A stretch of DNA of 64,000 nt from Gammaproteobacteria bacterium (lineage in GTDB: Bacteria > Pseudomonadota > Gammaproteobacteria > Pseudomonadales > IMCC2047): NCBI GenBank assembly GCA_021773395.1, contig JAJFKB010000010.1, positions 62,001 to 126,000 on the forward strand, given 5' to 3'. Below the pieces are notes generated by a model. It was not told where the DNA came from, did no database searches, and saw only the letters and a program-made list of their open reading frames with translations. The translations under genes were made by a program, and so were the position numbers. Positions 9,176 through 62,914 of this stretch are shown here, piece after piece (position 1 is the first letter of the stretch; each line of letters begins with the position of its first letter).

Positions 9176-9285
9176 AGAAGCGCAGCTTTATTCGTGTGCA
9201 CTGTGCCTGGGCTTTGCCAACACTTTAGTCACCGCAGTTTATTTTGCGGCGCTTTAACTCTATTACCCATTTATCACTGCTAATT

Positions 9286-10533
9286 ATGGATCATTTTAAC
9301 TATCGCAACGGCGAGTTATTTGCCGAAGATGTAGCAGTAGCAAAAATTGCTGCTGACTACGGCACGCCTTGCTACATTTATTCCAGAGCTACATTGGAAA
9401 TGCATTACCAGGCCTATGTAAATGCCTGCGGATCGCACCCCCACCTTATCTGCTACGCCGTTAAAGCCAATTCCAATCTTGGAGTACTCAATCTGCTGGC
9501 GAAGATGGGAGCGGGGTTTGATATCGTTTCTGTAGGTGAACTGGAGCGGGTACTGGCCGCTGGAGGGGATGCCAGCAAGATTGTTTTTTCCGGCATTGGC
9601 AAACAACCAGCGGAGATTCGCCGGGCTCTCGAGGTCGGTGTTCACTGCTTCAACGTAGAGTCCGAAGCGGAACTAGATTTGATCAATGCGGTCGCTGAAG
9701 AAACCGATCAAATTGCCCCTATTTCGTTGCGTGTAAATCCTGACGTCGATGCAAAAACACACCCCTATATTTCCACAGGCTTGAAAGAAAATAAATTCGG
9801 CATCGATATTTCCGAGGCTCACTCGGTGTATCAAAAAGCCGCTTCACTGAAGCACCTTGCCATTAAAGGCGTCGATTGCCATATCGGCAGTCAGCTCACA
9901 ACACTGGAGCCCTTTCTTGACGCATTGGATCGCTTGCTGGTACTGGTTGACGAATTGGCCGATTCGGGTATTCAGCTGTCACACCTGGATTTGGGGGGTG
10001 GGCTTGGTGTACCTTATAACGACGAGCAACCACCACATCCTAGCGAGTACGCTGCCGCAATTGTACAAAAACTGGCAGGACACAAGCTGACATTGCTGCT
10101 TGAGCCTGGACGGTCAATAGCTGCCAATGCCGGGATTTTGGTAACCCAGGTGACACTGCTTAAGCGTAATCCATTGAAGAATTTTGCGGTGGTAGATGCT
10201 GCCATGAACGATTTGATCCGCCCCGCCCTTTACCAGGCGTGGCAGGCCATCATTCCCGTTCAGCCGCGTGCTGGAAATGAAATTCAGTATGACGTGGTAG
10301 GTCCAGTCTGTGAAACAGGTGATTTTCTGGGGAAAGATCGGTTGCTATCTATTGAGCCAGGGGACCTGCTGGCGATACGATCCGCCGGAGCCTATGGTTT
10401 TACTATGAGTTCTAACTATAATTCACGAAATCGTGCAGTAGAATTAGTAGTTGATGCGGACAAGGTACACATCGTCAGATCACGTGAAACGATACAAGAC
10501 CAGATCGCACTGGAATCCCTGCTACCTGAATAA
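9286..10533 (+). CDS. lysA: Diaminopimelate decarboxylase
   Basis: A 415-residue PLP enzyme (alanine-racemase fold) that decarboxylates meso-diaminopimelate to lysine. The start is placed at the ATG at 9286 (MDHFNYRNGEL), which matches family N-termini; an in-frame ATG at 9244 would add 14 unrelated residues. The PLP lysine lies in CYAVKANSN (near residue 60). The HIGSQL block, the glycine-rich LDLGGGLG loop, the EPGR segment and the C-terminal VGPVCETGDF motif with the second-subunit Cys are all present. It lies between lptM and dapF in a lysine/peptidoglycan unit. Confidence 0.97.
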   Translation: MDHFNYRNGELFAEDVAVAKIAADYGTPCYIYSRATLEMHYQAYVNACGSHPHLICYAVKANSNLGVLNLLAKMGAGFDIVSVGELERVLAAGGDASKIVFSGIGKQPAEIRRALEVGVHCFNVESEAELDLINAVAEETDQIAPISLRVNPDVDAKTHPYISTGLKENKFGIDISEAHSVYQKAASLKHLAIKGVDCHIGSQLTTLEPFLDALDRLLVLVDELADSGIQLSHLDLGGGLGVPYNDEQPPHPSEYAAAIVQKLAGHKLTLLLEPGRSIAANAGILVTQVTLLKRNPLKNFAVVDAAMNDLIRPALYQAWQAIIPVQPRAGNEIQYDVVGPVCETGDFLGKDRLLSIEPGDLLAIRSAGAYGFTMSSNYNSRNRAVELVVDADKVHIVRSRETIQDQIALESLLPE

Positions 10534-33323: not shown

Positions 33324-33496
33324 ATTCCGACGAGCATACTGCCTGTAATTTCGCAGGCAGCATACCCAGCTCACCGCCTGCAAAATAATATTTCCGTACA
33401 AACTCTGGTAAATTCTACCGCCCTTTGATAGTTTCAAGAAATATCCATTGTTAATGGCTGCATTAATCATTAACCCTGTGTTTTTTGGAGTATTTC

Positions 33497-35605
33497 TTGG
33501 TATCCATACATGACTTTTCCTGTCGTTTAGACAGCTATTTAGAGCCGGATCAGATCAATCTGGTCAAACGTGCCTATTTTTATGCCGAACAGGCACATGA
33601 TGGACAGTTTCGACAAACCGGTGACCCCTATATAACTCACCCACTGGCGGTAGCGAATATACTCGCCGAAATGCAAATGGATCATCAAAGCCTGATGGCG
33701 GCAATGCTACACGACGTCATAGAGGATACCGGTATTGGCAAGGGGGCTCTGGTCACCCAGTTTAATGATACAGTCGCTGATCTGGTCGATGGTGTCAGCA
33801 AATTAACGCACCTTGAATTTGAGACCGTAGCTGAAGCACAAGCGGAGAATTTCCAGAAAATGGCCCTTGCCATGGCAGAGGATATTCGAGTCATACTCAT
33901 AAAACTTGCTGACCGCCTGCACAATATGCGTACCCTAGGTGTGCTAAGCCCGGAGAAAAGGCGCCGTATCGCGCGCGAAACACTCGATCTCTATGCCCCG
34001 ATAGCAAACCGCCTGGGCATGAATGACGTGCGAGTGGAGCTGGAAGAGCTTGGCTTTAAAGCGATGCACCCCATGCGTTCTGAACGAATCGCCCAAGCTG
34101 TAAGACGCGCCAGGGGTAATCGCAAAGAAATTGTCAGTCAGATCCAGTCAGTATTATCCAATTTCCTGGAACAGGAGCAATTACCGGGAGTCGTGATTGG
34201 CCGCGAAAAACACCTGAACAGCATTTACCAGAAAATGAAGGTCAGGGGGAAATCCTTTATTGATATTATGGATGTCTATGCTTTTCGCATAGTAACGGAC
34301 AGCGTTGATAGCTGTTATCGAATTCTGGGCGTAGTGCATAATCTGTATAAGCCCGTTGAAGGTAGATTTAAGGACTATATCGCTATCCCGAAAAGCAATG
34401 GCTACCAATCATTGCACACGACGCTGTTCGGGATGCATGGTGTGCCCATTGAAATCCAGATTAGGACCCGGGAAATGGAGGAAATGGCCAATAGTGGCAT
34501 AGCCGCCCACTGGTCCTATAAAAGTAATGAAAGCAATAAACACAGCCATGCCCGCGCCCGTCAATGGATCAAGGATCTTCTGGAGATGCAGCAGCGCGCA
34601 GGTAATTCTCTGGAGTTTATTGAAAACGTCAAAACCGAACTCTTTCCTCACGAAGTCTACGTATTTACACCCAAAGGTGTCATTTTAGAGCTACCCGTGG
34701 GTGCCACACCGGTCGATTTTGCTTACGCAGTCCATACCGACCTGGGCAACACCTGTGTTGCCTGCCGCATAGATCGAAGACTCGCACCACTGAGCACAAC
34801 ACTCCAGAGCGGGCAGACCGTAGAAATAATTTCCGCACCTAGTGCCCGGCCTAATCTCGCTTGGTTAAATTTTGTCCTTACCGGAAAAGCAAGAGGCGGG
34901 ATACGGCACTTTCTCAAGCACCAAAAAGAGTCCGAGGCGGCATCTCTCGGAAAGCGCCTGCTAGAGAAGGCGCTATTGGAAATGGATATATCAATGGAGC
35001 AATTGGAACCATCTCAAATTAATCGTACCGTTGAGTATATTGGTGCGGCCTCAATTGATGAAGTTTTCGCCGATATTGGCCTGGGCAAACGCATGGCCTA
35101 TGCGATAGCGCGCCTGTTTATGGATGCAGATTCTAATCAGCAACTGGAAGCCGGCACAACTTCTAACTTCACAATCAAGGGAACGGAAGGCATGATCGTG
35201 AGCTTTGCCAAGTGCTGCCACCCTATACCCGGGGAACCCATTATAGGCCACCTTAGCGTTGGCAAGGGAATGGTAATTCATCGCGAAACCTGTCATAACA
35301 TTAAAGAGATCAGAACCAATCCCGAAAAATGCATGCTGGTCAACTGGGATGAACACATACAGAGGGAGTTCAATGTCGCCTTGCGGATCGAGGTCATTAA
35401 TCAGCGCGGCATCGTGGCCACCATTGCGACTATTGTGACCGCCGCAGACGCTAATATTGAGAAAATTAGTATCGAGGAAAAAGACGCGAAAATGAGCCTG
35501 ATCCATATGGAAATCTATATCAAAGACCGCTTACACTTGGCGCGGGTAATGCGTAGAATCCGTAATAACAGCGCTGTGAACCGCATTACACGTGCAAAAA
35601 GCTAG
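33497..35605 (+). CDS. spoT: Bifunctional (p)ppGpp synthetase/hydrolase SpoT
   Basis: A 702-residue stringent-response enzyme. Domain order: HD hydrolase (HPLAVANIL, HDVIEDT, HNMRT motifs, residues about 20-180), synthetase (YAFRIVTDSVDSCY, KSNGYQSLHT), TGS (FTPKGVILELP, near 385), and a C-terminal ACT domain. The start is taken as TTG at 33497: a GGAG ribosome site stands 6 bp upstream, and the resulting N-terminus MVSIHDFSCRLDSYL matches SpoT proteins. A TTG four codons earlier overlaps that GGAG and is less likely. Confidence 0.96.
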   Translation: MVSIHDFSCRLDSYLEPDQINLVKRAYFYAEQAHDGQFRQTGDPYITHPLAVANILAEMQMDHQSLMAAMLHDVIEDTGIGKGALVTQFNDTVADLVDGVSKLTHLEFETVAEAQAENFQKMALAMAEDIRVILIKLADRLHNMRTLGVLSPEKRRRIARETLDLYAPIANRLGMNDVRVELEELGFKAMHPMRSERIAQAVRRARGNRKEIVSQIQSVLSNFLEQEQLPGVVIGREKHLNSIYQKMKVRGKSFIDIMDVYAFRIVTDSVDSCYRILGVVHNLYKPVEGRFKDYIAIPKSNGYQSLHTTLFGMHGVPIEIQIRTREMEEMANSGIAAHWSYKSNESNKHSHARARQWIKDLLEMQQRAGNSLEFIENVKTELFPHEVYVFTPKGVILELPVGATPVDFAYAVHTDLGNTCVACRIDRRLAPLSTTLQSGQTVEIISAPSARPNLAWLNFVLTGKARGGIRHFLKHQKESEAASLGKRLLEKALLEMDISMEQLEPSQINRTVEYIGAASIDEVFADIGLGKRMAYAIARLFMDADSNQQLEAGTTSNFTIKGTEGMIVSFAKCCHPIPGEPIIGHLSVGKGMVIHRETCHNIKEIRTNPEKCMLVNWDEHIQREFNVALRIEVINQRGIVATIATIVTAADANIEKISIEEKDAKMSLIHMEIYIKDRLHLARVMRRIRNNSAVNRITRAKS

Positions 35606-35649
35606 AACACAATTTTATAGAACAAAACATCAACTAATCAGGAAAGCTA

Positions 35650-36036
35650 ATGAGTAATCGCTCAGTGATTTCGACCGCTAACGCTCCACAGGCAATTGGC
35701 ACCTACTCGCAAGCCATCAAGGCTGGCAATACCGTATACTTATCCGGCCAAATCCCTCTAGACCCTGAAACAATGGAACTGGTGGAAGGCATAGATGCTC
35801 AAATAGAACAGGTATTTAAAAATCTGTCAGCGGTTGCAGAAGCATCAGGCGGCACACTTGCTGATATCGTCAAACTCAATATATTTTTGACTGACTTAGG
35901 CAACTTCGCACAGGTTAATGAGCTCATGGCCAAGAATTTCTCCGAGCCCTACCCCGCCCGAGCAGCCATTGGAATCAACAGTTTACCCAAGGGTGCACTG
36001 GTTGAAATGGACGCTATAATGGTTCTCAGCGAATAG
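35650..36036 (+). CDS. ridA: RidA family reactive intermediate deaminase
   Basis: A 128-residue trimeric protein that hydrolyses reactive enamine/imine intermediates such as 2-aminoacrylate. It shows the family [14 protein letters not shown] opening, [10 protein letters not shown] (near residues 30-39) and the C-terminal [19 protein letters not shown] with the key Arg (near 104). It follows spoT by 44 bp with an AGGAAAG ribosome site. The spoT-ridA pair is conserved in gammaproteobacteria. Confidence 0.96.
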
Positions 36037-36057
36037 ATTTTTCTAGAGGCTTTTCAG

Positions 36058-36984
36058 GTGACGCTGACCGAACTTCGCTATATTGTCACACTGGCAAGAG
36101 ACAGGCATTTCGGGCGGGCCGCCGAACATTGCCACGTTAGTCAGCCCACACTCAGCATTGCTGTTAAAAAGCTGGAAGATGAGCTTGGCTTAGTAATCTT
36201 TGAGCGTATAAAACACAGCATTCGCGTTACACCGCTGGGCCAGCAAGTTATTGACCAGGCGGAGAAAGTGCTAAACGAAGCGTCGGTAATCAAGCGCATA
36301 GCAGAATCTGGTAAGGATCCGCTCAACAGTCCATTACGCCTTGGCGCAATTTTCACTATCGGGCCCTATTTGTTTCCGCATTTGATTCCTCAAATGCAAC
36401 GTCTCGCCCCTAAAATGTCACTTTATCTCGAGGAAAACTATACCGCTATACTCAGAAAAAAACTGATCAGCGGAGAGCTTGATGTGATAGTCATCGCACT
36501 GCCTTTTACCGAGAAGGAAGTACTCACGAAGTCTCTTTATGACGAGTCCTTTGTGCTATTACTACCCGAGAACCATCCACTTGCTGAAAATGGTCAGATT
36601 GATCGGAATGAAATTACTTCAAAGCAAATGCTGTTGCTGGGTGAAGGACACTGTTTCAGAGACCAGGTACTTAAAGCATGCCCCGGCATTTTGGATTCTT
36701 TAGAGGCAGAACCGGACGCATCACCTATCACCGAAGGCAGCTCACTGGAGACCCTGCGCCACATGGTTGCATCGGGATTCGGGATTACCATCCTGCCTCA
36801 AACCGCTGCGGGTACGCAGTATTACGCCGAGGGCCTGCTGACCACTCGCCGTTTTAAATCACCGACACCTAGCCGTACCGTAGCGCTTGCCTGGCGCACA
36901 AGCTTCACCCGGCCTCAGGTAATAGATGTTTTGAATCAGGCAATACGCGCCTGTCAGCTCAGCACACCCTCTGACAGCTCGTGA
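36058..36984 (+). CDS. oxyR: Hydrogen-peroxide-sensing LysR regulator OxyR
   Basis: A 308-residue LysR-type regulator. The N-terminal winged HTH is at residues 1-60. The redox cysteines are Cys199 and Cys208 in GEGHCFRDQVLKACPG, the same numbering as E. coli OxyR, and form the peroxide-induced disulfide. The start is a GTG at 36058; the MTLTELRYIVTLARDRHFGRA opening fits the family. It lies 21 bp after ridA and overlaps recG by 4 bp. The oxyR-recG operon is known from Pseudomonas. Confidence 0.96.
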   Translation: MTLTELRYIVTLARDRHFGRAAEHCHVSQPTLSIAVKKLEDELGLVIFERIKHSIRVTPLGQQVIDQAEKVLNEASVIKRIAESGKDPLNSPLRLGAIFTIGPYLFPHLIPQMQRLAPKMSLYLEENYTAILRKKLISGELDVIVIALPFTEKEVLTKSLYDESFVLLLPENHPLAENGQIDRNEITSKQMLLLGEGHCFRDQVLKACPGILDSLEAEPDASPITEGSSLETLRHMVASGFGITILPQTAAGTQYYAEGLLTTRRFKSPTPSRTVALAWRTSFTRPQVIDVLNQAIRACQLSTPSDSS

Positions 36985-39095
36985 GCAACTCACTACCCCT
37001 TAATAAGCAGCCAGTCGACTCTCTCAAGGGTGTTGGAAAACAAACCTCTGAACGCCTGTCACGCATCAATATTACCAGCATTCAGGATCTTCTTTTTCAT
37101 CTGCCCCTGCGTTACCAGAATAGAACAACAGTCACCCCAATAGGCGCATTAAGAGATGGCCTCGAAGTGGTAGTAGAAGGGACTGTTTTAGCCTGCGATA
37201 CGGTTACTGGCCGTAGACGCAGCCTGTTATGTCGAATTGGAGATCAAACCGGCATCACTAGTTTACGCTTCTTTTATTTCAGCAATGCTCAGAAAAACAT
37301 GCTGCAAAAAGGAAATAGAATTCGATGCTTTGGCGAAGTTAGACGAGGAGCTTCTGGACTGGAATTCTATCATCCGGAATATAGTCTGATTAACCACAAT
37401 GACCATGGTAATGGCGCTATCGACCTGGCAGATAGGCTTACTCCTGTTTACCCGCTAACAGAAGGCATCAGTCAAAACAAATTACGCCAGCTTGCCGCGC
37501 AGGCGGTCAAAATGCTAGCAAACACAAGTTTGCTAGCCGATCTATTGCCCAAGCCCTGTCAAAATACAAACGATAAGTTCAGTATGGCGGAAACACTGGC
37601 TTTTCTCCATGCCCCACCCGTCCACCAAATCTCGGAACAGGAGATCAGAATGCTGGAGCAAAAATGTCATCCACTCCAGCAAAGACTTGCCCTGGAGGAA
37701 TTGACAGCACACCAGCTCAGTCTTCTGCAACTGCGAAAGCAAATACGCTCCAACCGGGCAAAATCGCTACCACAGGACAACAAGCTGACTAAACAATTTC
37801 TGCAGCAGCTGCCATTTCAATTGACCCCGGCACAAAAACGTGTGGCTCATGAGATAGGCGCTGACTTAGCCGACAACAAACCTATGCTCAGGCTTATTCA
37901 GGGCGATGTTGGCTCCGGAAAAACCGTTGTCGCAGCAATGGCAGCTTTGCAAGCAGTGGCTGGAGGACAGCAAGTGGCATTAATGGCACCGACAGAAATC
38001 CTGGCCGAACAACATTTAAAGAATTTCCAGCATTGGATGGCTCCGCTTAAGCTTAATATCGCCCGGTTAACCGGCAAACAAAAAGCCAAAGAACGCCAAT
38101 CTCAACAACATATTCTCGATAAAGGGATCGCCCAGATTGCAATTGGCACCCACGCACTTTTTCAAAAAGGCGTGTCATTCCGAAGTCTGGGGCTGGTCAT
38201 CATTGACGAACAGCACCGGTTTGGCGTTCACCAAAGGCTGGCATTATTGGAAAAGGGGGCGGAGCAGGGCCTCACACCCCATCAACTCATTATGACTGCA
38301 ACACCTATCCCGCGCACACTGACAATGTGCGCGTACGCAGATCTGGATTGTTCCATTATTGACGAACTACCCCCAGGCAGAAAACCTGTGGAAACCCTTT
38401 TGATTAGTGAACAAAAACGCAACCAGGTAATCGACCGGGTGCGTAACGCATGTAATACAGGTACGCAGGTTTACTGGGTTTGCACACTTATCGAGGAATC
38501 CGAAGCGCTGCAATGCCAAGCCGCAGAGGCAACAATGGAACTCCTCTCCAGCGCGCTCCCGGAGCTTCGAATCGGTTTGATCCACGGTCGCCTGACCAGC
38601 GGCGCTAAAGCAGAAATCATGCACCAGTTTAAAATCGGCGCAATCCAGCTACTGGTGGCTACCACTGTAATTGAAGTCGGTGTAGATGTAGAAAATGCAA
38701 GTCTGATGATTATTGAAAACCCTGAACGTTTGGGACTGGCACAACTACACCAGCTTAGAGGTCGAGTCGGGCGTGGAAAAACACAAAGCTATTGCGTACT
38801 CATGTACGCCTCTCCGCTATCAGAAAACAGCCGCCAACGTTTAACCGTCATGCGCGAGACAAACGATGGTTTTAAGATAGCAGAAAAGGATCTGAAACTA
38901 CGTGGCCCTGGTGATGTTCTAGGCACCAGACAAACAGGAATTGCGGTATTTAAAATTGCCGATTTGGAGCGCGACAGCGAACTGATACCTCAAGCACAAA
39001 ATTGTGCTAAGTCGATCATCCATGACAGACCTGAGCTACTTAATCCTTTGTTAGAAAGATGGCTGGGCAATCAACAGTCATATGGGAAAGTATAG
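36981..39095 (+). CDS. recG: ATP-dependent DNA helicase RecG
   Basis: A 704-residue helicase that remodels stalled forks and branched DNA. The N-terminal wedge/OB domain is followed by Walker A GDVGSGKTVVA (near residue 310), the DEQHRFG box (near 411), the TATPIPRT motif, and the C-terminal helicase part with QLRGRVGRG. The C-terminal TRG motif is in GTRQTG. The start is a GTG overlapping the oxyR stop by 4 bp, so it is translationally coupled to oxyR. Full length. Confidence 0.97.
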   Translation: MSNSLPLNKQPVDSLKGVGKQTSERLSRINITSIQDLLFHLPLRYQNRTTVTPIGALRDGLEVVVEGTVLACDTVTGRRRSLLCRIGDQTGITSLRFFYFSNAQKNMLQKGNRIRCFGEVRRGASGLEFYHPEYSLINHNDHGNGAIDLADRLTPVYPLTEGISQNKLRQLAAQAVKMLANTSLLADLLPKPCQNTNDKFSMAETLAFLHAPPVHQISEQEIRMLEQKCHPLQQRLALEELTAHQLSLLQLRKQIRSNRAKSLPQDNKLTKQFLQQLPFQLTPAQKRVAHEIGADLADNKPMLRLIQGDVGSGKTVVAAMAALQAVAGGQQVALMAPTEILAEQHLKNFQHWMAPLKLNIARLTGKQKAKERQSQQHILDKGIAQIAIGTHALFQKGVSFRSLGLVIIDEQHRFGVHQRLALLEKGAEQGLTPHQLIMTATPIPRTLTMCAYADLDCSIIDELPPGRKPVETLLISEQKRNQVIDRVRNACNTGTQVYWVCTLIEESEALQCQAAEATMELLSSALPELRIGLIHGRLTSGAKAEIMHQFKIGAIQLLVATTVIEVGVDVENASLMIIENPERLGLAQLHQLRGRVGRGKTQSYCVLMYASPLSENSRQRLTVMRETNDGFKIAEKDLKLRGPGDVLGTRQTGIAVFKIADLERDSELIPQAQNCAKSIIHDRPELLNPLLERWLGNQQSYGKV

Positions 39096-54217: not shown

Positions 54218-54508
54218 GGCGTCCGAGGCAGTCAGTATTTATCCAATCGTTACACTGATCCACTTGCTGAGGCAGGCTGTAATGCCTCCGTTGGCAGTGT
54301 CGGCGAAATGGCGTTGGCAGAGACTATCAATGGCTTGCACAAGGCTGAGGTCATTCATAATGACGGTCCTTGGTGTGGACTCGATGACGCAGAGCAAGTG
54401 ACATTAACCTGGGTTGATTGGTTTAACCATCGTCGATTGCTACGACCCATTGGCGATATGCCGTCTGCTGAATTTTACCGGTTTACCTATAAAACCTTCA
54501 CCCAGTAA
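54218..54508 (+). mobile_element. IS3-family transposase (OrfB) C-terminal remnant
   Basis: One plus-strand frame of 97 codons reads GVRGSQYLSNRYTDPLAEAG, then ASVGSVGE, ALAETINGLHKAEVIH, TWVDWFNHRRLLRPIGDMPS and YKTFTQ-stop. This is the end of an IS3-family integrase-type transposase, including the last catalytic Glu (ALAETING). The usual DSYDN stretch before it is deleted, and all upstream sequence, including OrfA and both terminal repeats, is missing. It is a dead fragment facing the ectR gene. Confidence 0.85.
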
Positions 54509-54534: not shown

Positions 54535-55032
54535 CTAAATAGAGGTGCTTTGCCGGTCCAACAACCCGACATCCAGTACAGGTGATGCATCAATATGCTG
54601 GGCATCCATCATCTGCGCGACCCGCTGCAAAGAGGAAATGATCATCGTTTGCTCCCACCCCTTTAGGTCGGAAAACTGACGGGCGAACTGGTCCTGCAGA
54701 GGTGTTGGCGCACTTCTTAAAGTTTCCATTCCTGTTTGAGTCAAGTATGCATGAACCTTTCGCTTGTCTTCGGTCGAGCGCTGACGGTAAACAAAGTTAC
54801 GTTTCTCCAGCCTGTCGAGAATAGTCGTTACGGTAGCTTGGCTCAGACTAATCTCTCTGGCCAACTCACCAATGGTGACCTGCCCTTTGTTGCGTATGGT
54901 TTGCAACAATAATATTTGCGGTGCCGTCAGTCCGGTCGTTTTTGCCAGATACTTGGAGTGCAGATCGGTTGCTCGTATGATGCGGCGTAACGCCACTAAA
55001 ACTTCATCAATGTTAGTCAAAACTCTATCCAT
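54535..55032 (-). CDS. ectR: EctR, MarR-family regulator of the ectoine operon
   Basis: A 165-residue MarR-type winged-helix regulator. The HTH spans about residues 45-75 (QVTIGELAREISLSQATVTT) and the wing contains DKRKVHAYLT (near 88-97). Dimerisation helices flank it. It is divergent from ectA, separated by 304 bp, the arrangement known for EctR repressors in halophilic methylotrophs and other ectoine producers. It therefore probably represses ectA and itself, binding a palindrome such as the one at 55309-55322. The binding itself is inferred. Confidence 0.9.
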   Translation of the reverse strand: MDRVLTNIDEVLVALRRIIRATDLHSKYLAKTTGLTAPQILLLQTIRNKGQVTIGELAREISLSQATVTTILDRLEKRNFVYRQRSTEDKRKVHAYLTQTGMETLRSAPTPLQDQFARQFSDLKGWEQTMIISSLQRVAQMMDAQHIDASPVLDVGLLDRQSTSI

Positions 55033-55336
55033 ACCTTATTTTCAGATAGTCCATCATACCTAATAGAGCCCAACCAATGCCAACTGACTATCTGTACAGA
55101 GTTAAGACGATTACCCTCCTTAACTGCTGATACCGAATACCCAGGCATACTCGCAGAGAATTGACTACGCAGCATTTAATCGTCATTTGAGAAGATTTTT
55201 AATTTAGAGTACAATACATTTTCTTTGTAGAAATACTTCTAAACGATCATTTTCGCTGCATATATCTTTATAACCCTCTATTTTTAACTTAAATTGGCCA
55301 CTATTTAAATTAGTGAACTAATATTTATTATTATAT
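55033..55336. promoter_or_regulatory. ectR-ectA divergent regulatory region
   Basis: This AT-rich 304-bp region holds no gene. Two palindromes stand out: TAGAA-ATAC-TTCTA (55228-55241) and the perfect ATTAGT-GA-ACTAAT (55309-55322), the latter ending 14 bp before the ectA start codon. Either may be an EctR operator. No confident -35/-10 pair could be chosen among many AT-rich hexamers, and ectA lacks a clear Shine-Dalgarno sequence. Confidence 0.5.
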
Positions 55337-55858
55337 ATGAATGACAATATTACTATTCGACGACCATTAACATCTGATGGTTACCAGCTTTTCAATCTGG
55401 TGGAACAGTGCCCGCCATTAGATAGCAATTCTATGTACTGCAATCTATTGCAATGCACTCATTTTGCAGACACCTCTGCGGCAGCGGAACAGCAGGGCGT
55501 GCTGGTAGGTTTTATATCCGGTTATTTTATTCCGGAGCGACCGGACACGCTATTTGTCTGGCAGGTAGCGGTGGGTGAAAAGGCGCGAGGCAAAGGCGTT
55601 GCCACGCGCATGACCAACCACATTCTCAAACGCACCCAATGCCGCGATGTAAAGTGGATTGAAACAACCGTTACCAAATCAAATGAGGCCTCTTGGGCAC
55701 TATTTAAAGGACTTGCAGGGAAACTACAAACCAAATTGCAACAGTCACTGATGTTTGACGAAAAGACTCATTTTAAGGGTCAACACGATACCGAAATCCT
55801 GGCTCGAATCGGGCCATTTAGCGCTGCGCAACTTAAAGCTGCTGCATCTTCACAATAA
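55337..55858 (+). CDS. ectA: L-2,4-diaminobutyrate N-gamma-acetyltransferase
   Basis: A 173-residue GNAT-fold enzyme that acetylates diaminobutyrate, the second step of ectoine synthesis. It shows the EctA pattern TIRRPLTSDGYQLFNLVEQCPPLD near the start, YCNLLQCTHFADT (about 34-46), and the acetyl-CoA site GEKARGKGVATRM (about 80-92). Length is typical (about 170). It starts the operon; the ATG at 55337 lacks an evident ribosome site, so translation may be weak or leader-dependent. ectB begins 28 bp downstream. Confidence 0.97.
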   Translation: MNDNITIRRPLTSDGYQLFNLVEQCPPLDSNSMYCNLLQCTHFADTSAAAEQQGVLVGFISGYFIPERPDTLFVWQVAVGEKARGKGVATRMTNHILKRTQCRDVKWIETTVTKSNEASWALFKGLAGKLQTKLQQSLMFDEKTHFKGQHDTEILARIGPFSAAQLKAAASSQ

Positions 55859-55886
55859 CGGAAAGTCATTTAACAGAGCATAATAG

Positions 55887-57206
55887 ATGAAAATTTTTGA
55901 TGAAATCGAATCTGAAGTACAGAGTTACGCGCGCTCTTTTCCGCGCGTATTCAACAAAGCACAGGCCGAGTTCCTCTACGATGAGGAGGGCAACCGATAT
56001 CTCGATTTTTTAGCCGGTGCTGGCACCTTGAACTATGGCCACAATAACCCACTACTCAAAGAAAAGTTAATGGAATACATTAACAACGACGGTATCACCC
56101 ACGGTCTGGACCTGCATACCAAAGCGAAAGGTGAATTTCTGCAAACCTTTAACGAGAAAATACTGAAACCGCGGGGTATGGAATATATCGTACAGTTTAC
56201 CGGCCCCACCGGCACCAATGCCGTTGAGGCGGCAATGAAAATTGCCCGCAACGTTACAGGTCAGCAGAATATCGTCACCTTTACCAATGGTTTTCACGGC
56301 GTAAGCCTGGGATCGTTGGCAGCTACCGGCAACTCACACCATCGCGATGCTGCAGGGGTTAGCCTGAACGGCACCCACCGCATGCCTTACGACGGTTACT
56401 TGGGTGAAGGCATAGACACCACTGCCTACCTGGATAAAGTGCTATCCGACTCAAGCAGCGGCATTAATTCACCCGCCGCTGTCATTGTGGAAACCGTGCA
56501 GGGCGAAGGTGGCATTAACGCAGCGACCCTTGAATGGCTCAGAAATTTGCAGACGGTTTGCAGAAAATACAAAATTCTGCTCATTGTCGACGATATCCAG
56601 GCCGGCTGCGGTCGTACCGGCGACTACTTCAGTTTTGAGGAAGCAGGCATAGAACCTGACATCATTACCCTTTCCAAATCCCTCGGCGGCTACGGCCTGC
56701 CATTTGCTGTGGTGCTAATGAAACCAGAGCTGGATCAATGGAAACCGGGCGAACATAACGGTACTTTTCGAGGTAATAATTTTGCTTTTGTTACCGCTAA
56801 AGCAGCGATTGACCAGTACTGGTCAGATGATCGGTTCTCCAATGAGATAAAACGCAAAGGACAGTACATCTCCGAACGACTCAATGCCATTGTTGAGCAA
56901 TATGGCGAAGGCAACTTTACCACTCGCGGCCGCGGCATGTTTCAGGGGATTAACTGTATTAACGGCGAGTTGGCCGGCGCGATTACACATAAAGCGTTCA
57001 AAAAGAGGCTGATTATCGAAACCAGCGGCGCCGACGATCAGGTGGTGAAGTTTCTTTGCCCACTGATCATCAGCGATGAAAACCTTAAAAAAGGGGTCGA
57101 TATTGTTGAGCAGGCCATTAAGGAGGTCTGTGCCGGCGAAGAGTCAATACCGGCAGAGATTGACTATTTTGATGACCAAGAAGAAGAACAGGCCGTTAAC
57201 TGTTAA
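55887..57206 (+). CDS. ectB: Diaminobutyrate-2-oxoglutarate transaminase
   Basis: A 439-residue class III PLP aminotransferase converting aspartate semialdehyde and glutamate to diaminobutyrate, the first committed ectoine step. It contains FTGPTGTNAVEAAMK (near residues 104-118), the DDIQAGCGRTG block (near 236-246), and the PLP lysine in TLSKSLGGYGLP (near 265). Length is standard for EctB. The C-terminal 20 residues are acidic. The next frame, orf84, begins 4 bp after its stop rather than ectC, which is unusual. Confidence 0.98.
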   Translation: MKIFDEIESEVQSYARSFPRVFNKAQAEFLYDEEGNRYLDFLAGAGTLNYGHNNPLLKEKLMEYINNDGITHGLDLHTKAKGEFLQTFNEKILKPRGMEYIVQFTGPTGTNAVEAAMKIARNVTGQQNIVTFTNGFHGVSLGSLAATGNSHHRDAAGVSLNGTHRMPYDGYLGEGIDTTAYLDKVLSDSSSGINSPAAVIVETVQGEGGINAATLEWLRNLQTVCRKYKILLIVDDIQAGCGRTGDYFSFEEAGIEPDIITLSKSLGGYGLPFAVVLMKPELDQWKPGEHNGTFRGNNFAFVTAKAAIDQYWSDDRFSNEIKRKGQYISERLNAIVEQYGEGNFTTRGRGMFQGINCINGELAGAITHKAFKKRLIIETSGADDQVVKFLCPLIISDENLKKGVDIVEQAIKEVCAGEESIPAEIDYFDDQEEEQAVNC

Positions 57207-57210
57207 TTAA

Positions 57211-57465
57211 ATGCGCTCAACAAAAAAACAATTCCATATCTGGCCCGGCGAAAGGCAGTTGCTGCCGTCGGCGCCGGATGGCCACTATCTGCAGCTCGAC
57301 TGCCTGGTTGGCAAAGCCTACTTACGGGTGATGTCGCGCTCCAGGCGCCAGGTGATTCGCTCGGGCGACAAGCAAAAAATCACCGCGGGAGAGATCGCAA
57401 CGGTCAGCGGTGTGGAAACCATGACGCTGGAAATTGAACTGAATACAATAAAGGATCGCAGCTAA
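57211..57465 (+). CDS. Unknown 84-residue protein encoded between ectB and ectC
   Basis: This small gene sits inside the ectoine operon, 4 bp after ectB, and its TAA overlaps the ectC ATG (TAATG), so it is under tight translational coupling. The product is basic in the middle and appears beta-rich: [31 protein letters not shown], then [27 protein letters not shown]. It has no signal peptide, membrane helix or Cys pair, and I recognise no family. The pattern of short strands with GE turns suggests a small beta-barrel or cupin-like fold, possibly an EctC-associated protein. That is speculation. Confidence 0.8.
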
Positions 57466-57869
57466 TGATTGTTAGAAATTTAAAGGAAGCCGAAAAAACA
57501 GCACGCCGCATCATATCTCCTGACGGCAACTGGGAGAGCACCCGGTTGTTACTGAAAGATGATGGAATGGGCTTCTCTTTCCATATTACCACCATCTATG
57601 AAGGCGCTGATTTTCAGATGCACTATCAGAACCATTTGGAGTCGGTCTACTGCATCTCTGGAGAGGGTGAAGTGGAAACCCTTGATGACGGCAAAAAATA
57701 CCCGATTACACCCGGCACACTTTACAACCTGGACCAACACGACAAGCACACCTTGCGTGCCTTCAAAGAACTGACGTTAACCTGCGTTTTTAATCCGCCA
57801 CTGAACGGTAAGGAAGTACATAACACAGACGGCGCCTACGAACTCGAAGCAGAAGCCGTTAGTCAATAA
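57465..57869 (+). CDS. ectC: L-ectoine synthase
   Basis: A 134-residue cupin enzyme that cyclises N-gamma-acetyl-diaminobutyrate to ectoine. The metal-ligand motif region shows [22 protein letters not shown] (split around residues 52-72) with Glu and Tyr ligands, and the [14 protein letters not shown] block (about 86-99) with the third ligand His. Length matches EctC (128-137). It begins within the stop codon of orf84 and is followed 33 bp later by ectD. Confidence 0.98.
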
Positions 57870-57902
57870 CAAGATGAGAACAAATAGGGAGAAAGATCAG
57901 AA

Positions 57903-58847
57903 ATGAGTCTCACCGAAAGAGATCAAAATAATACAGTACAGGATCATTACCGCTCACGGAGTGGTTTGAAGGCGCATTTTATAGACCGCACAGATCCAGT
58001 GGTTTACGCAGCGGAGCCTACAGCCGCTCCTATTTCGGAAAAGCTTGTTCAACAGTATGACGAACAGGGGTTTATTATTTTGGAAGATCTCTTTAGTGCT
58101 CGGGAAGTAGCCGGTTTCCAGCAAGAGCTGGACCGCCTCCGACACGATGAAGAGATAAAGGCATCAGGCGAAACTATTACCGAACCGGATAGCGGTGATG
58201 TACGGTCAATTTTCAGGATTCACGAAATCAGCCCACTCTTTAAAAAGCTAGCAGCAGACGCCAGGCTGGCAGGACTGGCACAATATCTGTTGGATGATCA
58301 GGTTTATATTCATCAGTCACGCCTGAACTACAAACCGGGGTTTCGCGGCAAGGAGTTCTATTGGCATTCAGATTTTGAAACCTGGCATGTGGAAGACGGT
58401 ATGCCGGCAATGCGCGCCCTAAGCATGTCCATTACACTTACCGCAAATGATGAGAGCAACGGCCCGCTACTGCTGATCCCCGGATCGCAAAGAAAATATG
58501 TAGTATGCGAAGGCCATACCCCTGCGGAACACTTCAGATCTTCATTGAAGAAGCAGGAGTACGGCGTACCAAGCGACGAATGTCTTAGCCATCTGGCAGA
58601 GCAGGGCGGTATTGTCACCGCTACCGGAAAACCCGGTAGCGTCATCCTGTTTGACTGCAATATTATGCATGGATCTAACGGCAATATTACACCGTTCCCG
58701 CGCTCTAATGCTTTTTTTGTCTATAACGCGCTCAGTAACCGAGTGGTCGATCCGTTCTGTGATCAGGCACCTCGTCCGGAATATATCTGCACCCGCCGAC
58801 AGATTAAGCCGCTGACGGTACAACAGTCCGGGAACAATCATGGATGA
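57903..58847 (+). CDS. ectD: Ectoine 5-hydroxylase
   Basis: A 314-residue non-heme Fe(II)/2-oxoglutarate dioxygenase that hydroxylates ectoine to 5-hydroxyectoine. The iron triad is seen in FYWHSDFETWH (His and Asp, near residues 152-160) and in CNIMHGSNGN (His near 255); the 2-oxoglutarate Arg is in FPRSNAFFVYN. DDQVYIHQSRLNYKPGF is the EctD consensus. Length is typical. An AGGGAGA ribosome site lies upstream. Its last 8 bases overlap the DksA/TraR-like gene. Confidence 0.98.
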   Translation: MSLTERDQNNTVQDHYRSRSGLKAHFIDRTDPVVYAAEPTAAPISEKLVQQYDEQGFIILEDLFSAREVAGFQQELDRLRHDEEIKASGETITEPDSGDVRSIFRIHEISPLFKKLAADARLAGLAQYLLDDQVYIHQSRLNYKPGFRGKEFYWHSDFETWHVEDGMPAMRALSMSITLTANDESNGPLLLIPGSQRKYVVCEGHTPAEHFRSSLKKQEYGVPSDECLSHLAEQGGIVTATGKPGSVILFDCNIMHGSNGNITPFPRSNAFFVYNALSNRVVDPFCDQAPRPEYICTRRQIKPLTVQQSGNNHG

Positions 58848-59133
58848 CAGCCAACATAACACCCTCAAGCAGCAGATTCAGAAGCGTATAAAGGAGCTGG
58901 AAATCTTATTGAATGATGACGAGGCTAAAAGCGCTACCGATGAAGATGCGGCCGTTGAGTCACAAATCACCGAAAACGAAAAACGCGAGTTGGCGGCCTT
59001 AAAGAATAATCTGAGATGGCTCGATACCGACGACGCAGGATATTGCAGCGAATGCGGATGCGAAATTCCCTTCGCTCGATTGCAGGCGGTCCTGGTAACC
59101 CGTATCTGTATCAATTGCGCACAACGAATATAG
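58840..59133 (+). CDS. DksA/TraR-family zinc-finger protein inside the ectoine operon
   Basis: A 97-residue protein. Residues about 5-62 form two helices with an acidic turn (TDEDAAVE, 33-40), and residues 69-93 form a four-Cys zinc finger, C69-x2-C72 and C90-x2-C93, in the pattern CSECGCEIPFARLQAV. This is the TraR/DksA zf-dskA family, whose members insert in the RNA polymerase secondary channel and change promoter kinetics, often with ppGpp. It overlaps ectD by 8 bp and precedes ask_ect by 7 bp. The classic DxxDxA tip of DksA is not exact. Its target is unknown. Confidence 0.88.
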   Translation: MDDSQHNTLKQQIQKRIKELEILLNDDEAKSATDEDAAVESQITENEKRELAALKNNLRWLDTDDAGYCSECGCEIPFARLQAVLVTRICINCAQRI

Positions 59134-59140
59134 GTCATTA

Positions 59141-60592
59141 ATGAGTTTGAATTACACAGAACAACACAGCGTTGAGAAAATCGGCGGCACTTCCATGAGC
59201 AATTATCAGGCGGTGCGCGACAATATAATTTTAAAGCCCCCCAGGGAATCTCTGTACAGGCGAATATTCGTTGTCTCTGCTTACGGCGGCGTAACCGACG
59301 ATCTGCTGGAACATAAGAAGTCGGGAAAACCAGGCATCTATAGTCTATTTGCAGGCAGCGAAAAGGAAGAGAGCTGGCTTGAGGCCTTACTCGCTCTCAA
59401 AAACAAGCTGCACGACATTAACCAGCAACTGTTTACGGATAAACAAGGGCTGGAACGGGCCAACCGTTTCATCGACCAGCGTCTCGATGCAGCACGGGAT
59501 TGCCTGACCGATCTGCAGCGCTTATGCGGCCACGGACATTTTTCTCTGGCCGAACACCTGAATACCGTCAGAGAGATGCTGGCCAGTATCGGCGAGGCGC
59601 ACAGTGCCTGGAATACCGCCGAACTGCTGCAGCGTGACGGAGCTAATGCCTGCTTTGTCGATCTGAGCGGCTGGCAAACGGCAAACCATGTACCCCTTGA
59701 TGAACGTATTCGGCAGGCGTTCGCGCCGATTGATCTGTCCACCCAGCTCCCCATCGTGACCGGCTACGCCCATAGCGAGAAGGGCTTGATGGCAAGTTTT
59801 AATCGGGGCTACAGCGAAATGACATTCAGCCGCATTGCTGTACTAACCAAGGCGGCTGAAGCGATCATTCACAAAGAGTTTCACCTCAGCAGCGCCGATC
59901 CCCGGCTGGTCGGGACGGAAAATTCCGTACCCATCGGACGCACCAATTACGATGTGGCCGACCAACTGGCCAATCTGGGTATGGAAGCGATCCATCCTAA
60001 GGCGGCAAAAGGGTTGCGACAGAATATCATTCCTCTACGGATAAAAAATACCTTCGAACCGGAACATGACGGCACCCTGATCACCTCAGACTACGTTAGC
60101 GAAGTACCCTGTGTGGAAATCATTGCCGGATGTAAAGGTATTTACGCATTGGAACTCTTCGATCAGGACATGGTGGGACAGATCGATCTATACGACAGGG
60201 AAATCCTGGCGGCAATACGGCGATTTAAAGTGCAAATTGTCGCCAAGGATATTAACGCCAACACCATTACCCATTATCTGGCCACCAATCTGAAAACCGT
60301 TAAACGACTGCGCACAGTGCTTGAAGATGTTTACCCGGACGCGGAGTTCGACCAGCGCAAATGCGCTATTGTCTCCGCTGTCGGCAGCGATATGCAAATT
60401 ACCGGCATGTTGGCAAAAGCGGTATCCGCCCTGGCAGAACAAGAGATCAACGTACAGGCGATGCACCAGTCGATGCGGCAGGTGGATATGCAGTTTGTTA
60501 TCGATGAGCAGGATTACGAACCGGCAGTCAAAAGCCTGCATAGCTGTTTGGTCGAAGTACACGAACACGGGAGTGCGATATGCGCGGTCTAA
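59141..60592 (+). CDS. Ectoine-linked aspartokinase (Ask_Ect)
   Basis: A 483-residue aspartate kinase of the subtype found in ectoine operons. The VEKIGGTSMSNYQAVRDNI start (residues 11-29) replaces the KFGGTS of housekeeping enzymes. The kinase core has GYSEMTFSRIAVLTKAAEA (near 224-243) and TNYDVADQLANLGMEAIHP. Two C-terminal ACT domains occupy about 330-480. It feeds aspartyl phosphate into ectoine and in other species escapes normal feedback inhibition. Its last 13 bases overlap the TPR gene. Confidence 0.95.
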   Translation: MSLNYTEQHSVEKIGGTSMSNYQAVRDNIILKPPRESLYRRIFVVSAYGGVTDDLLEHKKSGKPGIYSLFAGSEKEESWLEALLALKNKLHDINQQLFTDKQGLERANRFIDQRLDAARDCLTDLQRLCGHGHFSLAEHLNTVREMLASIGEAHSAWNTAELLQRDGANACFVDLSGWQTANHVPLDERIRQAFAPIDLSTQLPIVTGYAHSEKGLMASFNRGYSEMTFSRIAVLTKAAEAIIHKEFHLSSADPRLVGTENSVPIGRTNYDVADQLANLGMEAIHPKAAKGLRQNIIPLRIKNTFEPEHDGTLITSDYVSEVPCVEIIAGCKGIYALELFDQDMVGQIDLYDREILAAIRRFKVQIVAKDINANTITHYLATNLKTVKRLRTVLEDVYPDAEFDQRKCAIVSAVGSDMQITGMLAKAVSALAEQEINVQAMHQSMRQVDMQFVIDEQDYEPAVKSLHSCLVEVHEHGSAICAV

Positions 60593-61443
60593 TCGTCTCG
60601 TTAATAACCAGTGTATTGCTACTCAACGGCAGCGGCGCTGTTGGCGAGGAAAAACCTCAGCAGGCACCGGCTTTCGGCGAGCGAATTGCCAACTCGCCTT
60701 TCGTAGAGCTTTATGTCCTGGAAGAACTTAAACAGTTGCGCACTAACATGGCAGCACAAAAAAATGAGCTGATCCAGCAAATCGTTGACCGGGAAATTAA
60801 CTCCATCGACCATGGGGTACAGTACGCTACCGACACCATAACCTATTTCTTTTATCTGATCGCCGCCGCCAGTTCGGTAATGGTAATCGTGGGCTGGCAC
60901 TCTATACGTGACATTAAGGAACGCGTGCACTCTATGGCAGATCAGGAGATTACCAAGCTTATCGAAGTCTATGAGGAAAGATTGCACAGTATCGAGAGTC
61001 AGCTTAACCAAAAAACCGAACTGATCGAAGAGAATCGTGAGGAGATTGCGCTCACCCAGGAGGTTCATTCGCTATGGCTGCGCGCGGGACAGGATGTGAG
61101 TCCGCAAAACAAGATTAACATTTACGATCAGATATTGAAACTACACCCGGAAAGCACCGAAGCGCTAACCTATAAGGCCGACGCCGTGCTGGAACTACAG
61201 GAACCATTATGGGCGGTCAATCTTTGCCATCAGGCCCTGGTCATTGACCCGAACAACGCCCATGCCTTTTACCAGTTGGCCTGCGCCTGTACCGCAATGG
61301 ATCAGTTTGAGGAAGCAGTAAACTATCTTGGCGAAGCCCTGCAGCGCTCCGAATCCTACAGAGATGAGCTGGACTCTGATCCGGCCCTGGAACCGCTAAA
61401 AGACTATACACCTTTTACCCGGCTATTAGGAAAGACGGTGTGA
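60580..61443 (+). CDS. Membrane-anchored coiled-coil TPR protein of unknown function
   Basis: A 287-residue protein. It starts with a signal-like hydrophobic stretch (residues 3-21), then an outside segment of about 60 residues, a clear membrane helix (about 86-104, YFFYLIAAASSVMVIVGW), a coiled-coil (about 108-155), and three tetratricopeptide-like repeats (about 168-255) with the ALTYKADAVLELQE and AFYQLACACTAMDQFEEAV helices. The coiled-coil and TPR are predicted to be cytoplasmic. It overlaps ask_ect by 13 bp. The domain set suggests a scaffold or assembly role, but no substrate or partner can be named. Confidence 0.82.
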   Translation: MRGLIVSLITSVLLLNGSGAVGEEKPQQAPAFGERIANSPFVELYVLEELKQLRTNMAAQKNELIQQIVDREINSIDHGVQYATDTITYFFYLIAAASSVMVIVGWHSIRDIKERVHSMADQEITKLIEVYEERLHSIESQLNQKTELIEENREEIALTQEVHSLWLRAGQDVSPQNKINIYDQILKLHPESTEALTYKADAVLELQEPLWAVNLCHQALVIDPNNAHAFYQLACACTAMDQFEEAVNYLGEALQRSESYRDELDSDPALEPLKDYTPFTRLLGKTV

Positions 61444-61471
61444 AAATCGACTGCTGCTTTAGCAGGCTCCA

Positions 61472-62914
61472 TTGATGTCTCAAGGCGCCGAACCGTCAAC
61501 TATCGTCTTTTCCTTTATCGGCTTCTTATTGGCCTTTACCCTGATCGGGTTATCCTCGGCCTTGCAAAGCCGTGGCTCCCGGCATGACTACTACCTTGCC
61601 GACAGCAGTGTAAAACCATGGTTAGTCGGTTTGTCAGCGGTAGCAACCAATAACAGCGGTTATATGTTTATCGGCGTTATCGGCTACACCTATGTGACCG
61701 GCCTGGCTTCAATCTGGCTAATGATCGGATGGATTCTGGGGGATTTTTTAGCATCGTTGTTTGTGCATTCGCGTCTGCGGCAAGCGACCGGAAAAAGTAA
61801 CGAAGTCAGCTATGCGGGAGTTCTGAGCAACTGGTATGGCGATAAAAATGCCGGTCTGCAACGCTTGATCGGCCTGATCTCATTGCTGTTCCTTATTGCC
61901 TACGCCAGCGCCCAATTGGTTGCCGGAAGCAAGGCGCTGCACGTGCTGTTCGACTGGCCGGTCTGGCTTGGCGCGGTCATCGGAGCAGCCATCGTCTCGC
62001 TCTATTGTTTTGCAGGCGGCATCCGCGCCTCCATCTGGACCGATGCGGCACAGTCCATAGTGATGATCATTGCTATGGGACTGCTGTTGGTCGTTGCCGT
62101 TCAGTCATTGGGAGGCGTTAATAACGCGATCTCCGACATGCGGGAAATTGGAGGGTTTCTCGATTGGTTCCCCAAAGATCTTGTTGTCCCAGGCGTATCC
62201 GGGGGTGTACTGTTCGCCGTGAGTTGGTTATTTGCTGGCTTATCCGTCATCGGGCAACCCCACGTGATGGTGCGCTTTATGACGCTCGATGAGGGCAGCA
62301 GCATGCGCCGGGCGAGGCTCTGGTACTATCTGTGGTTTACTGCCTTCTATTGCCTGGCTACCGGCGTCGGCCTATTGTCGCGGATTTATCTAACTGACAG
62401 TGGCAGTTTCGATGCCGAGCTGGCCCTGCCCACTATGGCTTTGGAGTTACTGCCACCGGTTCTGGTCGGCTTGGTTTTAGCGGGAATTTTTGCCGCCACC
62501 ATGTCGACGGCGGATTCTCTGGTACTGAGCTGTTCCGCTGCGGTTACCCATGATCTACTTCCCCATAATATTGAACGGCCGCTACTGATCAAGCTGACCA
62601 CTATCGCTGTTACTGGCTGCGCCCTGTTGCTGGCGCTGGCGCAAAATCAAAGTGTTTTTAACTTGGTCATTATGGCTTGGTCAGGGCTTGCCAGCGCTTT
62701 CGCCCCGCTACTCATCTGTCTGTGCCTCAACCGCAGACCGAGCCAAGCGCAGGGCATGACAGCGGTGCTCACCGGTTTATCCGTAGCGCTGGCTTGGCGC
62801 TACATGGGATGGCACGAGGCCATTTATGAAGGACTACCCGGCATCATATCTGGATTGCTGGTACTTTTTTTGCTGCGCCCCAAACCTGTAACAAAAAAAT
62901 CGATAGCGTCTTAA
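61472..62914 (+). CDS. Sodium:solute symporter (PutP-like) at the end of the ectoine operon
   Basis: A 480-residue inner-membrane transporter of the SSS family with about 13 hydrophobic helices. It has the DYYLADSSVKPWLVGLSAVATNNSGYMFIG block (split around residues 38-66), similar to PutP, and the AGIFAATMSTADSLVLSCSAAV segment (about 332-353) containing the sodium-site Ser/Thr. PutP-type members import proline or other compatible solutes with sodium. Its position, 28 bp behind the TPR gene, suggests uptake of ectoine, hydroxyectoine or proline. The substrate is inferred only. Confidence 0.88.
   Translation: MMSQGAEPSTIVFSFIGFLLAFTLIGLSSALQSRGSRHDYYLADSSVKPWLVGLSAVATNNSGYMFIGVIGYTYVTGLASIWLMIGWILGDFLASLFVHSRLRQATGKSNEVSYAGVLSNWYGDKNAGLQRLIGLISLLFLIAYASAQLVAGSKALHVLFDWPVWLGAVIGAAIVSLYCFAGGIRASIWTDAAQSIVMIIAMGLLLVVAVQSLGGVNNAISDMREIGGFLDWFPKDLVVPGVSGGVLFAVSWLFAGLSVIGQPHVMVRFMTLDEGSSMRRARLWYYLWFTAFYCLATGVGLLSRIYLTDSGSFDAELALPTMALELLPPVLVGLVLAGIFAATMSTADSLVLSCSAAVTHDLLPHNIERPLLIKLTTIAVTGCALLLALAQNQSVFNLVIMAWSGLASAFAPLLICLCLNRRPSQAQGMTAVLTGLSVALAWRYMGWHEAIYEGLPGIISGLLVLFLLRPKPVTKKSIAS

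Follow-up and report, generated by a model that had tools for sequence, protein, structure and literature searches.

Here we describe an extended ectoine/hydroxyectoine operon in a 64,000-nucleotide stretch (C26:62001-126000; the whole stretch is hereafter called the window) of the 3.8 Mb, 98.9% complete draft genome of a gammaproteobacterium of the order Pseudomonadales. Besides the genes for ectoine synthesis (ectABC), ectoine hydroxylation (ectD), precursor supply (ask_ect) and regulation (ectR), the locus contains a small gene (orf84), a gene for a DksA/TraR-like zinc-finger protein, one for a membrane protein with tetratricopeptide repeats (TPR) and one for a sodium:solute symporter (SSS). 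Judged from sequence, this extended variant of the ectoine operon is real, and the mechanisms proposed below for three of its parts are inferred. Our reading, to which we assign a probability of roughly 0.65, is that the locus forms a single EctR-repressed salt-stress unit, to which orf84, the DksA-like gene and TPR belong as accessory parts of the ectoine module.

Gene content and order of the ect locus

An annotation made earlier from the letters of the window (the sequence-only reading) had proposed ten genes, with ectR divergent from ectA-ectB-orf84-ectC-ectD-dksA/traR-like-ask_ect-TPR-SSS. All ten open reading frames (ORFs) were found with the coordinates, strands and lengths it gave, and curated family models bear out the order:

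54535..55032, minus strand: ectR, MarR-family regulator (PF01047, 75.7 bits against a cut-off of 24.6)
55187..55216, plus strand: promoter-like site TTGAGA-17-TACAAT with putative EctR operator (motif search)
55337..55858, plus strand: ectA, diaminobutyrate acetyltransferase (TIGR02406, 206.6 bits against 120.6)
55887..57206, plus strand: ectB, diaminobutyrate-2-oxoglutarate transaminase (TIGR02407, 663.7 bits against 552.2)
57211..57465, plus strand: orf84, small predicted cupin-fold protein (one base in common with ectC, TAATG)
57465..57869, plus strand: ectC, ectoine synthase (PF06339, 197.5 bits against 27; NF009806 over its cut-off)
57903..58847, plus strand: ectD, ectoine 5-hydroxylase (TIGR02408, 373.6 bits against 336.5)
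58840..59133, plus strand: DksA/TraR-like C4 zinc-finger protein, 97 aa (zf-dskA_traR, PF01258, 34.0 bits against 24.9)
59141..60592, plus strand: ask_ect, ectoine-type aspartokinase (NF006614, 761.5 bits against 536)
60580..61443, plus strand: membrane TPR protein, topology predicted (TPR_17, TPR_19, TPR_1, TPR_2 and ANAPC3 over cut-off)
61475..62914, plus strand: SSS, putative compatible-solute importer (SSF, PF00474, 193.8 bits against 22.8)

The tight spacing claimed for these genes, with gaps of 4 to 33 bp and overlaps of 1, 8 and 13 bp, likewise follows from the coordinates. Gaps separate ectA from ectB (28 bp), ectB from orf84 (4 bp), ectC from ectD (33 bp), the DksA-like gene from ask_ect (7 bp) and TPR from SSS (28 bp), and overlaps join orf84 to ectC (1 bp), ectD to the DksA-like gene (8 bp) and ask_ect to TPR (13 bp). 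For SSS, a TTG at 61472 had been listed as the start; the ATG directly after it, at 61475, is the likelier one and widens the last gap to 31 bp.

EctA, EctB, EctC and EctD all exceed their curated cut-offs and are encoded on one strand in a single gene run, together with an aspartokinase of the Ask_Ect type (NF006614). The whole genome holds a single EctC match, and the residues E59, Y87 and H95 are invariant in 17 aligned EctC sequences. A compact ectoine cassette, comprising regulator, precursor enzyme, hydroxylase and transporter, was rightly recognized by the sequence-only reading. By homology and gene order, Ask_Ect would supply aspartyl phosphate, EctB, EctA and EctC would make ectoine and EctD would hydroxylate it, with the symporter encoded last. 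As far as the accessible text of PMC5924519 describes them, the ectABC-ask_ect(-ectD) operons of Methylotuvimicrobium (Methylomicrobium) alcaliphilum 20Z and Methylophaga share with the window ectABC, ask_ect, ectD, a divergent MarR-type regulator (EctR) and a site over the -10 of an ect promoter (in the window a candidate site), whereas orf84, the DksA-like gene, TPR and SSS are additions of the window's operon.

A candidate EctR site and a proposed single transcription unit

The name EctR rests on family and position, because no model of that name is among the 25 NCBIfam matches listed for the protein: it belongs to the MarR family, is encoded divergently from ectA and, as a sequence motif only, a conserved site lies over the candidate -10 element. 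TTGAGA-17-TACAAT is the top-scoring promoter-like site of the region (10/12), and TTTAGAGTACAATA at 55203-55216 overlaps its -10. Among ectR-ectA regions, k-mers such as GTACACTAA are enriched, and the motif TATTTAGTGTACTATA is found ahead of ectA, matching at least 12 of 16 positions, in 54 of 56 regions (the window scores 13), against means of 3.2 of 56 in Markov-resampled regions (largest 8) and 5.2 with shuffled seeds (largest 19). The operator pattern has one occurrence in the window and in the whole genome, and the reversed control none. A second half-site that many relatives have downstream (CTAAA or CTAAG) is not present at the same distance in the window. Since EctR of M. alcaliphilum covers the (distal) -10 of the ect promoter, according to the accessible portions of PMC5924519 and PMC3979721, a putative EctR operator is the natural reading of the TTTAGAGTACAATA site. 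EctR would repress one promoter through a conserved site over its -10, and all nine plus-strand genes would be transcribed from this single EctR-controlled promoter under salt stress. The cue sensed by EctR is stated as unknown in the accessible text of PMC5924519.

Could the operon instead be read as several transcripts, with the ectA-to-ectD part (including orf84) as one, and the DksA-like gene, ask_ect, TPR and SSS served by internal promoters? The DksA-like gene, ask and TPR do stand as a block where present, and a weak promoter-like site (57421-57449, 9/12) lies within orf84. Yet promoter-like sites are fewer than in shuffles (9 against 13.2), operon genes overlap, and no terminator-like site was found on the plus strand between operon genes, those inside the operon lying within ectA, ectB and SSS; on both strands of the region together, terminator-like sites number 15 as compared to 9.7 +/- 2.8 in shuffles. 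We consider such a division unlikely and retain the single unit.

Recurrence of the extra genes

Two samples were used to follow the extra genes. The first is class-wide and comprises 369 genomes, 57 of them with an EctC match (53 over cut-off); of the 57 that match PF06339, 40 supplied an ectC neighbourhood, mostly for the stronger matches and all from genomes other than the window's. An ask gene (at least 40% identity) occurs in 12 of the 40 and is followed by TPR in six, and one other (L043) ends at the contig end. For the second sample, a profile of eight TPR proteins returned 449 encoding stretches in genome_contigs, and the best 80 were taken with flanks of up to 10 kb, so that shares among these 80 of 449 describe near relatives. 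Judged by their equal lengths, the contigs of several pairs of loci appear to be identical (L046/L077, L115/L167, L037/L094, L042/L146 and L047/L113).

Ect or ask genes lie within 10 kb of TPR in 71 of the 80 loci. BLAST annotation found ectC and ask in 67 each, ectB in 65, ectR in 62, ectA as a separate ORF in 58, SSS in 37, ectD in 20, the DksA-like gene in 14 and orf84 in four. The commonest orders are ectR/ectABC-ask-TPR-SSS (19 loci), the same minus SSS (11) and TPR alone (nine). All ten genes, in the window's order, are also present in Dasania sp. GY-MA-18 (L115, apparently G491) and in G464, of the same genus code, and TPR follows ask_ect with a near-fixed overlap in records titled Methylophaga, Microbulbifer, Marinobacterium, Oleispira, Motilimonas and others. 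Recurrence of these genes in an identical order elsewhere shows the arrangement to go beyond chance. Confinement of the extra genes to this one strain would have told against the sequence-only reading; orf84, the zinc-finger gene and TPR in fact recur at the same positions elsewhere. As they do so in other marine bacteria, the extra genes are probably real parts of the ectoine system, not a single-strain oddity. Of the three, TPR has the widest distribution and orf84 the narrowest, and the DksA-like gene hints most at a regulatory role.

Alternatively, the extra genes might be passengers that owe their compact order to descent and play no role in ectoine physiology. Their presence is patchy, the fewest changes on a quickly built EctB tree (67 proteins, support without bootstrap, any row with more than 20 unknown residues to be excluded) being three for orf84 and six for the DksA-like gene, and TPR is found outside ect clusters too. 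Still, they occupy the same position across genera and orders in spite of this patchiness, and their sequences are conserved: 32 columns are invariant among 40 TPR rows (56% mean column identity), 20 among five orf84 rows, and the C4 site is kept in 15 of 15 DksA-like proteins. Passenger status thus appears improbable to us, and we favor accessory parts of the module.

orf84, a predicted cupin without metal ligands

What could orf84 contribute? Its product of 84 residues yielded an AlphaFold2 model (mean pLDDT 90.1) with cupin structures among the fold matches, and is predicted to be a cupin that lacks the metal-ligand residues. The double-stranded beta-helix fold is present on the predicted model only, and, set against the cupin motif consensus in the accessible text of PMC6344544, the metal-ligand His/Glu residues are missing, with no invariant His and Ala63 at the motif-2 His in five of five aligned sequences. 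Pfam gave no match for orf84 at E<=1, and searches of PHROGs and of PDB sequences returned nothing useful. Nor does orf84 qualify as an EctC: neither it nor its four relatives match PF06339 at E<=1, and Ala stands at the ligand His (ligands Glu57, Tyr84 and His92, P. lautus numbering). From EctC and from small cupins it differs in its length, in having no invariant His and in the invariance of Ala63 at the EctC His ligand.

A single-sequence search found no relatives of orf84 in 56 other genomes of the order and nearer, nor in genome_contigs. Relatives first surfaced via the TPR loci, and searching the 294 genomes of the order with a profile then added G464 and G491; weak class-level matches (E 0.002-0.004; G420, G252, G233 and G212) are not counted as relatives. 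The gene is hence known from six genomes of three groups, five besides the window's, and always as ectB-orf84-ectC; in the three Motilimonas genomes, the gene upstream of it encodes EctA fused to EctB. It starts 3-6 bases after ectB in four relatives (4 in the window), with -29 to +12 bases to ectC. The EctB tree places every carrier within a single supported set of 21 rows, which is compatible either with one early gain followed by losses or with transfer in place.

orf84 would accordingly be a metal-less cupin translated just ahead of the cupin enzyme EctC, and our tentative proposal, with the odds somewhat against it, is that it works through direct contact with one of the Ect enzymes, EctC being the first candidate. 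Might it rather be a worn-down tandem copy of ectC? The two profiles run in register over ~45 columns with a score of 22.5, as compared to at most 19.0 in 200 column shuffles, and EctC structures are among the fold matches of orf84. However, hhalign puts the probability of the pair at 10-12%, BLASTP finds no match between them, and L183, another cupin-match ORF of the same genome, scores higher at 27.6 (34 scored, both strands, taking the longest ORF over each match). We find this origin doubtful and, because L183 scores higher, keep the claim for orf84 to cupin membership.

A DksA-like protein within the operon

The DksA-like protein exceeds the Pfam cut-off of its family, and its zinc-site cysteines (69, 72, 90 and 93) are invariant in 15 of 15 aligned proteins, as are R80 and E50, one row being partial. 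All 15 proteins match DksA models at E<=0.001, and their profile matches the DksA structures 1tjl and 2kq9. With DksA/TraR proteins it shares the C4 zinc site and a coiled-coil region that is predicted to be alike; it differs in its 97 aa, in scoring below the DksA equivalog cut-off, in being one of three family members of the genome and in its location in an ectoine operon. Since there are two other members, one in a 151-residue open frame of the same length as E. coli DksA chain 1tjl, the operon gene is, by sequence, an additional family copy. That its product binds RNA polymerase and tunes transcription during stress is a possibility to which we give a little less than even odds.

In all 14 loci that carry it, the gene lies directly ahead of ask, following ectD in ten and ectC in four. 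Among the 67 loci with ectC, ectD accompanies the DksA-like gene in 10/14 as compared to 8/53 without it (Fisher p 1.0e-4); an association independent of descent was rejected, there being only two supported independent pairs (sign test p 1). In the window, 16 to 22 kb upstream of ectA, positions 33485-39095 hold a SpoT/RelA-type gene, one ORF and recG, a neighbourhood that matters here only on condition that the DksA-like protein acts together with ppGpp.

The TPR protein, a possible membrane adaptor

TPR models over cut-off place this protein in its family. It is predicted to have a hydrophobic signal or transmembrane (TM) segment near residues 4-22 and a second TM segment near 87-105; among 40 members, the N-terminal segment is found in 38 and the central one in 40. 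The AlphaFold2 model (mean pLDDT 82.7) shows a single helix from 40 to 171 and TPR helices from 175 to 282, with residues 16-39 poorly predicted. The predicted arrangement is a periplasmic helix, a membrane span and a cytoplasmic coiled coil followed by the TPR domain (175-282). A Foldseek search with the model gave only TPR and designed repeat or transmembrane proteins among the 50 matches listed. LapB has an inner-membrane anchor and a cytoplasmic TPR domain, an arrangement that is also predicted for the window's protein; with MamA (NF040959, 34.1 bits, below the cut-off of 200) it has the TPR domain in common. The predicted periplasmic helix and the long continuous helix through the membrane set it apart from both.

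EctC exceeds its cut-off in 11 of 13 TPR-positive genomes, whereas the whole sample has 53 such genomes among 369 (Fisher p 1.3e-8, with no correction for relatedness). The claim that TPR is a part of ectoine operons stands insofar as the gene recurs there; it is not confined to them, as neither an ect gene nor ask_ect lies close to it in nine of the best 80 loci. Eight genomes of these nine loci were searched, several being metagenome bins of unknown completeness, and six gave no EctC. Because it is present in genomes with no EctC or Ask_Ect found, the most fitting view of the TPR protein is that of a membrane adaptor which frequently sits in ect operons but has a broader role and is not ectoine-specific. 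Nearly an even chance, in our estimate, goes to a scaffold or turgor-linked adaptor in the inner membrane that would hold partners by its cytoplasmic TPR domain and serve the ectoine module in this case, within a wider role.

A narrower idea reserves the TPR protein for Ask_Ect, as its membrane anchor or regulator, the two being coupled via the overlapping genes such that precursor would be made at the membrane on turgor. The overlap between the two genes is 16 bases in 42 loci and 13 in 19, i.e. exactly one of these values in 61 of the 67 loci with both (gene starts assigned mechanically), and Sessilibacter corallicola (L152/G666) keeps the ask-TPR pair though no EctC was found in its genome. 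Nevertheless, four genomes (G303, 100% complete by the genome table, and those of L126, L085 and L096) have TPR beside ect genes and no Ask_Ect over cut-off, and none of the eight searched genomes with TPR apart from ect genes has one. In all, Ask_Ect exceeds its cut-off in 5/20 searched TPR genomes, 12 of which had been picked because TPR stands apart from ect genes. This search weakened the notion of an Ask_Ect-only partner, which we now hold to be unlikely, and an adaptor with a wider role is preferred.

Several TPR genes outside ect clusters have neighbors of their own. In L123:3289-5715 and L149:1540-3967 (titled Cellvibrionales and Porticoccaceae), a stand-alone TPR gene follows ornithine-cyclodeaminase-like and threonine synthase genes, again near aspartate-family metabolism (assigned by family models on L149 only, and by sequence likeness on L123). 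In G246 (L171:8479-9375), TPR lies 0.5 kb from groES/groEL-like genes, as judged by eye, on a different contig from the ectoine and ask_ect genes. In G322, TPR is on another contig, where it borders on a terminal stretch of Ask at the contig end.

The symporter as a known kind of part

The last gene encodes an SSS-family protein (PF00474 over cut-off) whose best NCBIfam match, PutP (TIGR02121), is below cut-off (229.4 against 515.5 bits). A TNNSGYM motif is found in 36 of 38 SSS copies, including the window's. The accessible text of PMC13342039 describes EctI, an importer of the SSS type for hydroxyectoine and betaines that is associated with ect clusters in Hyphomonas and Planctomycetota; the likeness is one of family and of position next to ect genes, and the window's gene is the last of its operon and carries the TNNSGYM motif. 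In kind, the SSS gene is comparable to known ect-linked importers. The operon probably imports ectoine besides making it, and the symporter might recapture leaked or external compatible solutes. Four extra genes had been counted in the sequence-only reading; orf84, the DksA-like gene and TPR are indeed unusual, while SSS, given EctI, is a known kind of part.

Points that weigh against the reading

Several observations weigh against an accessory module of this kind. First, in the class-wide sample TPR is found in seven, SSS in four, the DksA-like gene in one and orf84 in none of the 40 ectC neighbourhoods, so that none of the four is a general part of ectoine clusters. Second, the DksA-like protein is not DksA proper (TIGR02420, 48.7 bits against the equivalog cut-off of 115.5), and the window's copy is without nine coiled-coil-tip residues kept in its nearest relatives. 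Third, the orientation given to the TPR protein relies on a weak charge bias (three Lys/Arg against two Asp/Glu after the second TM segment of the window's copy). Finally, of nine genomes (of unstated completeness) reached via TPR loci without EctC nearby, seven yielded no EctC, and Ask_Ect cannot be the TPR protein's only partner, given the four genomes with TPR next to ect genes in which it does not exceed its cut-off.

Further observations on ect loci

Just past ectR, an integrase-core-like fragment (window 54308-54508; rve_3, E 4.5e-5, below cut-off) probably represents what is left of a transposase next to the operon. Among the 80 TPR loci, six encode EctA and EctB as one fused ORF of 605-647 aa (L099:5813-7630, L103:5944-7761, L151:5870-7687, L111:5060-6922, L117:6102-7973 and L119:6067-8010), with three changes on the EctB tree. 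In the methylotroph-like L090 and L091, ectD comes after ask and ahead of TPR-SSS; a further, partial EctC-like ORF is present in L090 (8420-8689). The cluster at G204:C1:1925407-1926340 (L041) contains two adjoining ectC genes, with a third EctC match elsewhere in the genome. Methylotuvimicrobium buryatense (L094) has ect genes and TPR-SSS with no Ask_Ect match, and its gap after ectC (8413-8712, 9118-9832) holds repeated, insertion-like short translated stretches.

Significance for ectoine biology

The genes that two surveys associate with ect clusters are, in the accessible portions, ectD, ask_ect, ectR and, in one mention, asd (PMC5924519, PMC3979721), and a Microbulbifer genome paper describes a cluster with ask_ect, ectC, ectB, ectA and a regulator, with no mention of TPR or a symporter (PMC5501506). 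Among the papers listed by a search of the non-subscription literature, none has a title or opening abstract on ectoine-linked TPR or DksA-like genes. Within that literature, as far as it is accessible, orf84, the DksA-like gene and TPR are accessory parts not found described for ectoine operons.

Taken at its boldest, the locus would carry a control layer of its own, in which a catalytically dead mini-cupin pairs with EctC and governs how much ectoine is made, an operon-encoded DksA-type factor reprograms RNA polymerase under salt stress and an envelope-spanning TPR adaptor links turgor to the ectoine enzymes of the cytoplasm; we rate this as unlikely. For ectoine production, orf84, the DksA-like gene and TPR represent parts for which no test was found. 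The same three genes are direct knock-out targets for work on how turgor is sensed and ectoine supply is set.

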